55,347 nt of DNA from an uncultured Trueperaceae bacterium (lineage in GTDB: Bacteria > Deinococcota > Deinococci > Deinococcales > Trueperaceae), in contig CAJXOA010000013.1 of the NCBI GenBank assembly GCA_913057685.1, positions 1 through 55,347 on the forward strand. Reading direction: 5' to 3'. The notes beneath the pieces were generated by a model. It worked only from the letters and a program-made list of their open reading frames with translations, was not told the DNA's origin and ran no database searches. Positions within the stretch are counted from its first letter, which is position 1. The number at the start of each line of letters is the position of its first letter. A program made the position numbers and the translations under genes. Shown here piece after piece: positions 46,800-49,588 of this stretch.

Positions 46800-47339
46800 T
46801 CACCCCCCGAGCCGCACCGACGCCCACGTGATCAGGCCCAGGGCGGGCGCGTAGGCGAGGGCGGCGTGCAACGCCACCGCCGCGCGGACGCCCTCCGCGC
46901 GCCCCACGTGCAAGCCGACCCCCAGCAGGTACGTCTGGGCCGGCGGGACGATCGCGATCGCGGCGACGAGCGCCTCCGCCGGCCGCACCGCGGCGACCGG
47001 GAGCGCCAGCAGCGCCACGACGCCGGCGGGCGCCCACGACCACCCGAGGAGCGCCGCGACGCGCGGGTCGAAGCGGTAGCGGCGCGCCACCGCCAACCCC
47101 GCCGCGCCCCCCGCGAACGCCAGGTACGGCACCGCGACCGCCGGCCCGATCGCGGCGGCGCGCACGCCCAAGGCCGGCGCGAAGGCGGCGTGCGACGCGA
47201 CCGCGGTCGCGACCGCGACGAGCGCCAGGGCGCCGACCGCGACGGCGAACGCCCGCCGCGGGGTCGGCGCGTCCACCTGCCGCGCGAGGAACGCGTCCGG
47301 CGCGTAGCGCGCCCACCCGCCGCGCGGCCCGGCGTTCAC
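46800..47339 (-). CDS. Unrecognised integral membrane protein
   Basis: A 179-residue protein with a cytoplasmic-looking N-terminus (about 30 residues, Arg-rich) and roughly five hydrophobic segments (near residues 30-50, 57-85, 95-120, 125-145, 155-175). The layout recalls Yip1-type small membrane proteins, but no diagnostic motif is seen. The GTG start overlaps the mqnD stop (GTGA), so it is probably co-expressed with mqnD. Its role is unknown. Confidence 0.72.
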   Translation of the reverse strand: MNAGPRGGWARYAPDAFLARQVDAPTPRRAFAVAVGALALVAVATAVASHAAFAPALGVRAAAIGPAVAVPYLAFAGGAAGLAVARRYRFDPRVAALLGWSWAPAGVVALLALPVAAVRPAEALVAAIAIVPPAQTYLLGVGLHVGRAEGVRAAVALHAALAYAPALGLITWASVRLGG

Positions 47340-48172
47340 GGGGTGGGGGTGGGCCAGAACAACGCCTCGGGTGGGGGGGCGATGCGACCGCGGTCGGCGG
47401 CGCGGTCCAGCAGCGTCCGCACCGCGGCGCGCCCGTCGTCGCCGACGTCGAGGCTGTGCTCCGTGACGTACGTCTCGACGTGGCGACGGCGGACGTCCGG
47501 CGCCATCTCCTGCGCGTGCTCCGCGACGTACGCCGCGCTGGCGTCGGGATCGGCGAACGCCGCGGCGACGCTGTCGCGCACCGCCCGCGCGACGGCGTCG
47601 ATCGTGGCGTCGGGCAGGTCGCGGCGGATCGCGATGCCACCAAGCGGGATCAGCGTGCCGCTGACCCCCTCCCACCATGCGCCCAGGTCGACGACCCGCT
47701 CGAGGCCGTGGTCGGGGTAGGTGAAGCGCGACTCGTGAATGATGAGGCCGGCGTCCACCTCGCCGTCCGCGACGGCGGCGAGGATGCGGTCGTAGCGCAT
47801 CTCGACGCGCCGAGCGCCGGGCGGGGCGTACAGGTCGAACAGCAGGTTCGCGGTCGTCCGGCCGCCCGGCGTCGCGACGGTCGCGCCGTCCAGCGGCGCG
47901 TGCGCGTCGCGCGCGACGACCAACGGCCCGACGCCGCGACCGAGCGCCCCGCCGGCGCCCAGCATCCACCAGGCGGGGGCGATCCGCCCGAACGCGTGGT
48001 AGGAGACCTTCGCGACGTCCAGCTCGCCGTTCTCCGCCATGCCGTTCAGCGTCTCGACGTCCTCGAGGTGCACCTCCCAATCGAGAGTGGGGGCGACGAG
48101 GCCGTGCACGAGGGCGTGGAAGACGAACGCGTCGTTGGGGCAGGGGGAGAACCCGAGGCGGAGGCGGTCCAT
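47336..48172 (-). CDS. mqnD: 1,4-dihydroxy-6-naphthoate synthase (futalosine menaquinone pathway)
   Basis: A 278-residue periplasmic-binding-protein-fold enzyme that turns cyclic dehypoxanthine futalosine into 1,4-dihydroxy-6-naphthoate. LRLGFSPCPNDAFVFHALVHG at the start, in pieces SPCPNDAF and LDVAKVSYHAF, is the MqnD signature. ETLNGMAENGELDVAK and GLIIHESRFTYPDHGL are further matches. It points to menaquinone made by the futalosine route, with menG as the final step nearby. The ATG lies 6 nt after a TAGGTT box. Confidence 0.93.
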   Translation of the reverse strand: MDRLRLGFSPCPNDAFVFHALVHGLVAPTLDWEVHLEDVETLNGMAENGELDVAKVSYHAFGRIAPAWWMLGAGGALGRGVGPLVVARDAHAPLDGATVATPGGRTTANLLFDLYAPPGARRVEMRYDRILAAVADGEVDAGLIIHESRFTYPDHGLERVVDLGAWWEGVSGTLIPLGGIAIRRDLPDATIDAVARAVRDSVAAAFADPDASAAYVAEHAQEMAPDVRRRHVETYVTEHSLDVGDDGRAAVRTLLDRAADRGRIAPPPEALFWPTPTP

Positions 48173-48178
48173 GCGGTG

Positions 48179-48187
48179 AACCTACCA
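48179..48187 (-). promoter_or_regulatory. Leaderless extended -10 for mqnD
   Basis: Minus strand TGG TAGGTT, 6 nt (CACCGC) before the ATG at 48172. Confidence 0.6.
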
Positions 48188-48243
48188 ACGCACCGCGCGT
48201 CCGCACGTGGCGTGAGCGTGCGTTGATGCGGCGTCCGCCCACC

Positions 48244-48252
48244 TGCTAAGGT
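48244..48252 (+). promoter_or_regulatory. Extended -10 for the infC-rpmI-rplT operon
   Basis: TGC TAAGGT. It would start transcription near 48259. That is 8 nt before a GTG (48261) and about 44 nt before the ATA used here as the infC start. Confidence 0.55.
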
Positions 48253-48302
48253 GACCCGCCGTGCCCGCCGGCCAGCGCGGGCGCGCCTTGGAGGTGGCGT
48301 TC

Positions 48303-48953
48303 ATAGCGAAGGACCTGAAGGTGAACGATCAGATCCGGGTTCGGCAGGTACGCCTGATCGACGCGGAGGGAACCCAAGTCGGGATCGTGGATACGCGCGA
48401 CGCCATGCAGCGCGCGCGGGATGCGGACCTCGACCTCGTGTTGGTGGGCGAACGGGCGCAACCGCCGGTCGCGCGCCTCATGGATTACGGCAAGTACCGC
48501 TACGAGTTGCAGCAGGAGGCGAAGGAGGCCCGCAAGCGCTCCCGCCAAAGCGAACTCAAGGCGATCAAGTTCCGCGTCAAGATCGGCGATCACGATTACC
48601 GGACGAAGGTCAATCACGTGCGCCGCTTCCTGTCGGCGGGCCACAAGGTGAAGGTCACCATCATGTTCCGCGGGCGGGAACGCACCCACCCCGAGCTCGG
48701 CAAGGAGCTCCTGCAGCGCGTCGCGCAGGACGTCTCCGACCTCGCCGCCGTCGATCAACCCCCGCAGATCGCCGGGATGGACATGAACATGACCGTCCGC
48801 CCGATCGCCGGGGAGGCGCCCGCCGGCAAGGACGACGACGCCGGCGCGGGCAAGGGCGGCAAGGGCGGCAAGGACGCCAAGGGCCCCCGGTCGGGGGGCG
48901 ACGAGGCCGGGCCGCAGGACGACGCCACCCCCGAAGCGGCCCCGACGGGGTAG
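48303..48953 (+). CDS. infC: Translation initiation factor IF-3, probable ATA start
   Basis: IF-3 of 216 residues from an ATA codon. The start is chosen because GGAGGT (48290-48295) lies 7 nt ahead and IAKDLKVNDQIR lines up with the true N-terminus of Bacillus and Thermus IF-3. Unusual start codons are known for infC, where IF-3 represses its own translation. The alternative is GTG at 48261, adding 14 residues without a Shine-Dalgarno. The N-domain has VRLIDAEGTQVG, the linker is Lys-rich, and the C-domain has IKFRVKIGDHDYRTK and KVTIMFRGRERTHPELG. The last 50 residues are a Gly/Lys/Asp-rich disordered tail. Heads the operon with L35 and L20. Confidence 0.9.
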   Translation: MAKDLKVNDQIRVRQVRLIDAEGTQVGIVDTRDAMQRARDADLDLVLVGERAQPPVARLMDYGKYRYELQQEAKEARKRSRQSELKAIKFRVKIGDHDYRTKVNHVRRFLSAGHKVKVTIMFRGRERTHPELGKELLQRVAQDVSDLAAVDQPPQIAGMDMNMTVRPIAGEAPAGKDDDAGAGKGGKGGKDAKGPRSGGDEAGPQDDATPEAAPTG

Positions 48954-49010: not shown

Positions 49011-49208
49011 ATGCCGAAACTCAAGACCCACAAGGGCACCAAAGCCCGTGTCAAAGTCACAGGGCGAGGTAAGGTCAAGGCGATGCGCTCCGGCAAGCGA
49101 CACTTGAACTACAAGAAGTCCGGAACGCGCATTCGGCAGGGCCGTACCGACCTCATCGTCTCCGAAGCGGAAGCGAAGAAGATCACCGCGCTTCTGCCGT
49201 ACGACTGA
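49011..49208 (+). CDS. rpmI: 50S ribosomal protein L35
   Basis: A 65-residue basic protein. The N-terminus PKLKTHKGTKARVKVTGRG and the following SGKRHLNYKKS are typical L35. It binds 23S rRNA in the large subunit. The ATG has AAAGGA about 6 nt upstream. A TAGACT at 48951-48956, overlapping the infC stop, could act as a second promoter. Codons here are less GC-biased than in neighbours, as expected of a highly expressed gene. It lies 57 nt after infC and 11 nt before rplT. Confidence 0.96.
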   Translation: MPKLKTHKGTKARVKVTGRGKVKAMRSGKRHLNYKKSGTRIRQGRTDLIVSEAEAKKITALLPYD

Positions 49209-49219
49209 GAGGGTAGCGA

Positions 49220-49588
49220 ATGCCGAGAGCCAAGACCGGCACCGTTCGTCGGGCCAAACACCGCAAGATCCTCAAGGCCGCCAAGGGCTACTGGGGCCTG
49301 CGTTCGAAGAGCTTCCGCATCGCGCAACAGACGCTGCTGAACGCCGCCGATTACGAGTACCGCGATCGCCGCGCCAAGAAGGCGACGTTCCGCCGCCTGT
49401 GGATCGCGCGCATCAACGCCGCAGCGCGCCTGAACGGCCTCTCCTACAGCCGCTTCATGGCCGGCCTGCGCGGCGCGGGCGTGACGCTCGACCGCAAGGT
49501 CCTCGCCGACCTCGCCGTCCGCGAACCCGACGCGTTCGCGCACCTCGTCGAGGTCGCGAAGGAGGGCGGCGCGGCGAAGGCCGCCTGA
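49220..49588 (+). CDS. rplT: 50S ribosomal protein L20
   Basis: A 122-residue rRNA-binding assembly protein. The N-terminal basic helix has [20 protein letters not shown] and [14 protein letters not shown], and the globular part has [19 protein letters not shown] and [21 protein letters not shown]. In many bacteria L20 represses its own operon by binding the leader RNA; no matching site was proven here. It is last in the infC operon and is followed by a strong hairpin. Confidence 0.97.

Follow-up and report, generated by a model that had tools for sequence, protein, structure and literature searches.

At which codon does translation of infC, the gene for initiation factor IF3, begin in a bacterium that, among named organisms, is most closely related to Trueperaceae of the phylum Deinococcota? 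In the 55,347 nt stretch of DNA analyzed here (in the following called the window; it is contig 13, and the genome comprises 2.29 Mb in 74 contigs), a rare ATA follows a strong Shine-Dalgarno (SD) sequence, and an in-frame GTG lies further upstream, near the predicted 5′ end of the mRNA. The preliminary description of this locus placed the start at the ATA and suggested that the GTG might serve as a leaderless start, yielding a second form of IF3.

AUA-type starts of infC and the self-repression of IF3 are already known. The AUU start of the Escherichia coli gene and its autoregulation by IF3 are reportedly the subject of work by Butler, Springer and Grunberg-Manago from 1987. More recent texts give ATT for E. 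coli and ATC for Streptomyces in connection with IF3 autoregulation, and state that IF3 discriminates against non-NUG starts, which makes infC self-limiting in E. coli (PMC5472188). AUU is likewise given for Bacillus subtilis (PMC1805508), and AUA, detected by initiation profiling, for Staphylococcus aureus (PMC13009471). The Streptomyces work describes the gene sigR as starting with GTC and being repressed by IF3, and the infC start as misannotated in most Streptomyces species (PMC5472188).

The window's gene encodes IF3 according to the TIGR00168 equivalog (196.9 bits, above the cut-off; the match begins at residue 17 of the GTG form) and the Pfam domains IF3_N (PF05198) and IF3_C (PF00707). 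It is followed by rpmI and rplT, giving the gene order infC-rpmI-rplT (Table 1). Given the divergent menaquinone biosynthesis gene at 47336–48172, the infC promoter is confined to positions 48173–48302, if infC is the first gene.

Table 1 Features of the infC locus, in positions of the window.
Feature	Position	Strand	Basis or remark
Menaquinone biosynthesis gene (PF02621), divergent from infC	47336–48172	−	Profile match
−35-like hexamer TTGATG	48223–48228	+	18 nt before the −10 hexamer; weak; TTGAT/TTGAA in several relatives
Extended −10 box TGCTAAGGT of the infC promoter	48244–48252	+	TGCTA at the same place in 36/37 Trueperaceae infC genes
Predicted transcription start	48259–48261	+	7th–9th nt past the −10 hexamer; coincides with the onset of the leader hairpins in relatives
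Predicted 5′-terminal leader hairpin	48260–48285	+	10 pairs; leader predicted at −18.9 kcal/mol; 5′ arm includes the upstream GTG
GTG, earlier read as leaderless start	48261–48263	+	In 5′ arm of hairpin; predicted fully paired; not conserved as a start
Shine-Dalgarno sequence GGAGGT	48290–48295	+	Read from the sequence; kept in relatives; 16S 3′ end complementary
ATA start codon of infC	48303–48305	+	Conservation; relatives without other start; N-terminus alignment
infC, translation initiation factor IF3	48303–48953	+	216 aa counted from ATA; profile matches
rpmI (ribosomal protein L35), gene after infC	49011–49208	+	Profile match
rplT (ribosomal protein L20)	49220–49588	+	Profile match

We confirmed that GGAGGT lies 7 nt ahead of the ATA, with the spacer GGCGTTC (48296–48302), and found the 16S 3′ end needed for pairing with it (GGATCACCTCCTTT) to be present. 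The alignment to the N-termini of Bacillus and Thermus IF3, proposed earlier, was reproduced with the solved IF3 chains 1tif and 5lmn, presumably from Bacillus and Thermus, respectively. The codon following the ATA corresponds to residue 2 of 1tif, which places residue 1 on the ATA itself, and 5lmn, one residue shorter, begins one residue later. The genome contains the pattern GGAGGT-N7-ATAGC a single time; because a reversed control pattern is equally frequent (one copy), the single copy is no proof of a start, and the evidence comes from conservation.

For this, we used 111 Deinococcota genomes from five families, on which class and phylum searches agreed. Deinococcus itself is seemingly absent from this set, with none among 80 named loci; studies of D. 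deserti may reportedly give the infC start of that species. A match to infC was obtained in 106 genomes (five had none), and 97 infC genes were read from 97 genomes; the other nine matching genomes, six with loci that were not retrieved and three with partial matches only, stand outside the counts. A second infC-like gene in genome G004 (L118) was also excluded from all 97-gene counts.

The codon behind the SD is ATA, ATC or ATT in 93 of the 97 genes and GTA in four, as chosen by a codon picker that considered only ATA, ATC, ATT, ATG and GTA; in one gene (L121) the script picked an ATC to which an ATA is directly joined downstream, and the codon is AUH whichever is right. An in-frame NTG 4–11 nt behind the SD, taken from the candidate lists, occurs in none of the 97. 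In 51 genes, an in-frame stop is followed by no ATG, GTG, TTG or CTG up to the rare codon, leaving no ordinary start, and in 34 an in-frame stop lies at most three codons before it. The stop immediately precedes the ATA in all 19 Thermus-type genes read (genus g30), as well as in L089 (Trueperaceae) and L128. The five infC genes of the window's own genus carry ATA (four) or ATC (one). For 60 named loci from other phyla, a coarse automated reading returned ATC, ATT or ATA in 47, ATG in two, TTG in one and none in ten.

The rare codon, never an NTG, thus stands at the same place in 97/97 genes, some of them without any ordinary start, and no protein sequence is conserved before the ATA when the upstream regions of relatives are compared. 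These results support the start proposed before. The gene combines IF3 identity, an AUH codon at the proper distance from the SD and conservation without a usable NTG, which places it in the class of infC genes with rare (non-NUG) starts. The infC gene of this bacterium almost certainly begins at AUA; the assignment is strongly supported, as sure as sequence alone allows, and belongs to a known kind.

Like E. coli infC, the gene has a non-NUG codon that differs from AUG at the third base, and a strong SD; it differs in using AUA for AUU and in having its own predicted promoter with a short hairpin leader, and its response to IF3 is deduced rather than known as there. S. aureus infC shares the AUA codon and the strong SD, but belongs to another phylum; its codon was observed by initiation profiling (PMC13009471). 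With Streptomyces, our locus would share a rare start kept for IF3 control, although the GTC there belongs to sigR, not to infC (PMC5472188).

Three groups of loci deviated in other respects. The second infC-like gene of G004 is divergent (45% identity) and starts with ATA; a long inverted repeat precedes it, and the gene may stem from contamination of that genome. In family f4 (L126, L129–L132) the genes start with ATT, and directly behind it their products share a conserved, basic extension of ~15 residues at the N-terminus (RRRGRVPPPTKTQH-like). Ten loci, mostly from Thermoleophilia and other Actinomycetota (L021, L022, L023, L028, L032, L040, L045, L068, L069 and L080), yielded no proper SD with a rare start; in these, a TTG recurs ~18–21 codons ahead of the conserved IF3 motif and may be a leaderless start.

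Start codons beyond AUH appeared in two lineages. In the actinobacterial order that includes L036 (Actinomycetota bacterium KatS3mg013; genes L180–L203), for which 22 of 27 genomes were read (L186, L193 and L204 were left out, two had no match), the 22 infC genes carry GTC (18), GTA (three) or ATG (one) at this position. None of the 21 GTC/GTA genes has an ATG, GTG or TTG between the in-frame stop, usually located inside the SD (TGA), and that codon, and the lone ATG occupies this very position, which speaks for GTC and GTA being starts in the others. Within the Deinococcota, all four genes of family f3 (L119, L127, L138, L145) have GTA at the start position, 6–7 nt from the SD. A GUA start is probable throughout this family, although it is less certain in two of the four, where a further ATG abuts the SD two codons upstream. 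For recJ, a GUA initiation mutant controlled by IF3 has reportedly been described. A literature search on infC with GUC, GUA or GTC starts yielded, for IF3-controlled bacterial genes, GTC only in Streptomyces sigR (PMC5472188).

Turning to the region upstream of the SD, a strict consensus scan found no promoter at infC, and the window's own −10 hexamer (TAAGGT) is weak. We nevertheless accepted the −10 box because TGCTA recurs there in nearly all Trueperaceae infC genes (Table 1). A search of the window's own genome for similar pairs of promoter and SD returned a single match, belonging to another gene. When promoters were chosen for the leaders of relatives, a bonus for the GTG/TTG-preceded form set L154, L164, L119 and L127 right, while the choice for L123 still looks wrong.

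The predicted transcript opens with a hairpin. We defined a 5′-terminal hairpin as a helix of at least four pairs starting at most 4 nt from the predicted mRNA start and derived the expectation from dinucleotide shuffles. Such a hairpin is present in 84 of the 97 Deinococcota infC leaders (43.9 expected); the mean folding z is −2.45, and it is below −1 in 25 of 31 genera. As a control, 45 promoter-like sites from other places in these sequences gave a mean z of +0.18, with 13 hairpins versus 15.1 expected. A further control comprised 49 leaders from this phylum that belong to genes other than infC, hand-picked by eye among the matches listed, one per look-alike group (52 entered, three shorter than 12 nt were lost), some of them probably chance matches within genes; these gave a mean z of −0.82 and 16 hairpins versus 16.2 expected. 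Other leaders of the phylum are mildly structured, though not at the 5′ end.

The two arms of the helix also change together. Within one aligned genus (13 distinct leaders of the Meiothermus group), covariation was modest: both partners had changed in 2 of 15 pairs, and 13 of 500 shuffles scored as high; for this reason we added an alignment-free arm-swap test. Across 29 genera, own arms paired at −9.0 kcal/mol versus −6.4 kcal/mol for swapped arms, and in none of 20 draws did any of the 1000 permutations reach so low a value; within the Trueperaceae (17 genera) 0 or 1 of 1000 did. This test leaves some between-genome GC difference in, while the dinucleotide shuffles remove the GC effect. When the Trueperaceae leaders are lined up on the −10 box, three to six kinds of standard pair occur at each of positions 2 to 7. 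Excess stability and co-varying arms thus support the predicted hairpin, whose sequence changes freely.

Thirteen leaders missed the 5′-terminal criterion. In eight, there is a helix that begins deeper in the leader; in the others, it is too weak (L159) or off by one nucleotide (L086), the leader has 8 nt and no hairpin (L119, L127), or the promoter is the doubtful one mentioned above (L123). In the window's transcript the SD and the AUA are predicted to be mostly paired; over the stretch from the SD into the coding sequence, no conserved structure above chance was found in the 97 genes (mean z +0.53).

How, then, should the upstream GTG be read? Its position had been given correctly as in frame, 42 nt (14 codons) before the ATA and 8 nt after the −10-like box. 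If the mRNA began at or next to this GTG, 70S ribosomes could also produce an IF3 with 14 extra residues, and thus two forms; because the codon is in frame and open in this organism and so close to the −10 hexamer, it might allow a low-level long form here. In this phylum, a −10 box adjoining the reading frame commonly gives leaderless expression, and leaderless transcripts are assumed for about one third of the genes in D. radiodurans (PMC12340547). The comparison of relatives, however, makes this reading very unlikely. We scored any ATG, GTG or TTG at most 5 nt from the predicted mRNA start for frame and open reading. Among 37 Trueperaceae genes, such a triplet is in frame and open in two (the window and G004); in the other 35 it is in frame but stopped (six), out of frame (20) or absent (nine). 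In none of the 60 infC genes from other families is it in frame and open. All four congeners of the window lack the in-frame GTG, including G033, where a leader shorter by one nucleotide puts the GTG out of frame although the two IF3 proteins show no difference over 168 residues. Since a functional N-terminally extended IF3 would keep its frame, this speaks against an extension. At the position of the GTG, relatives have GTG, GTA, GCG or CTC, and the conserved property is therefore pairing, not a codon; in the window, these bases are predicted to be paired with a probability near 1. High IF3 is moreover reported to inhibit leaderless mRNAs (PMC9031893). A start codon at the 5′ end is thus neither conserved nor in frame (2/37), a conserved SD GGAGGT is present, and the suggestion of two IF3 forms finds no support: the GTG is one arm of the predicted RNA hairpin at the front of infC across the phylum. 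Two further in-frame codons, GTG at 48294–48296 and TTG at 48288–48290, are open as well, and in-frame NTG codons recur near the SD in many Trueperaceae, as GTG is part of GGAGGTG. Initiation at either is extremely improbable: both overlap the sole SD and are therefore unable to use it, the stops right before the ATA in L089, L128 and the genus g30 genes intervene, and in the seven g4 genes, which have a shifted SD frame, that GTG falls out of frame while the rare codon is retained.

A different question is whether the hairpin serves as a binding site for a regulator such as ribosomal protein L20 or IF3, in the manner of the B. subtilis infC leader. The gene order infC-rpmI-rplT is shared with B. 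subtilis, where L20 controls the operon (PMC10931766), and the 5′-terminal hairpin is enriched at infC relative to other leaders. Yet a protein-binding site would be expected to conserve sequence or shape, and the leaders range from 8 to 83 nt (L123 aside) with no sequence in common. No Rfam family matched at the gathering score in eight relatives, and the window stretch gave matches at chance level only. We regard such a site as improbable.

The arrangement that we consider very probable is an infC gene with an extended −10 promoter, a short 5′ hairpin leader, a strong SD and an AUA start read as methionine. Transcription from this promoter would yield an mRNA beginning with the hairpin, followed by the full SD and then the AUA, to be decoded as methionine by initiator tRNA. 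Going by known biology, the strong SD would compensate for the weak start codon, and because IF3 destabilizes non-NUG initiation, free IF3 would lower its own synthesis; this self-repression, the standard explanation, is likely here as well. The hairpin, in turn, may shield the 5′ end of the mRNA, prevent ribosomes from starting there in leaderless mode, or both. If initiation at the end were blocked, all IF3 synthesis would pass through the IF3-sensitive AUA site. In E. coli, 5′-terminal stem-loops can reportedly stabilize mRNAs (attributed to Emory, Bouvet and Belasco, 1992); the hairpin described here likewise lies at the very 5′ end, but in a different organism, and its stabilizing effect is putative.

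More tentatively, we suggest as a possibility, although not the expected outcome, that selection at infC keeps the weakness of the third base and no specific codon, GUC and GUA included, and that in the Deinococcota this is paired with a sequence-free 5′-terminal hairpin that blocks end-initiation. If true, every IF3 molecule would be made via an IF3-sensitive site, in a phylum that readily initiates at mRNA ends.

Gene finders restricted to ATG, GTG and TTG misplace this start, for instance at the GTG at 48261 with 14 false residues. On a wider scale, the comparison points to a deliberately poor start codon retained in IF3 genes over very long times; it puts GTC and GTA on the list of infC starts, and indicates that the infC leader hairpin is kept as a structure while its sequence changes. 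Literature searches did not find the infC 5′ hairpin or the GTC/GTA infC starts of the L036 order in print, and it is these that merit follow-up; we claim no priority for the GTC/GTA starts because a survey of non-AUG genes appeared on arXiv in 2020.

Hairpins of other kinds were seen along the way. Among the matches listed are leaders of several other Thermus genes in which a GC-rich hairpin immediately precedes the SD (GGGGGCCAAGGCCCC type), and in many infC genes of the L036 order, a hairpin of varying sequence was recognized by eye upstream of the SD.
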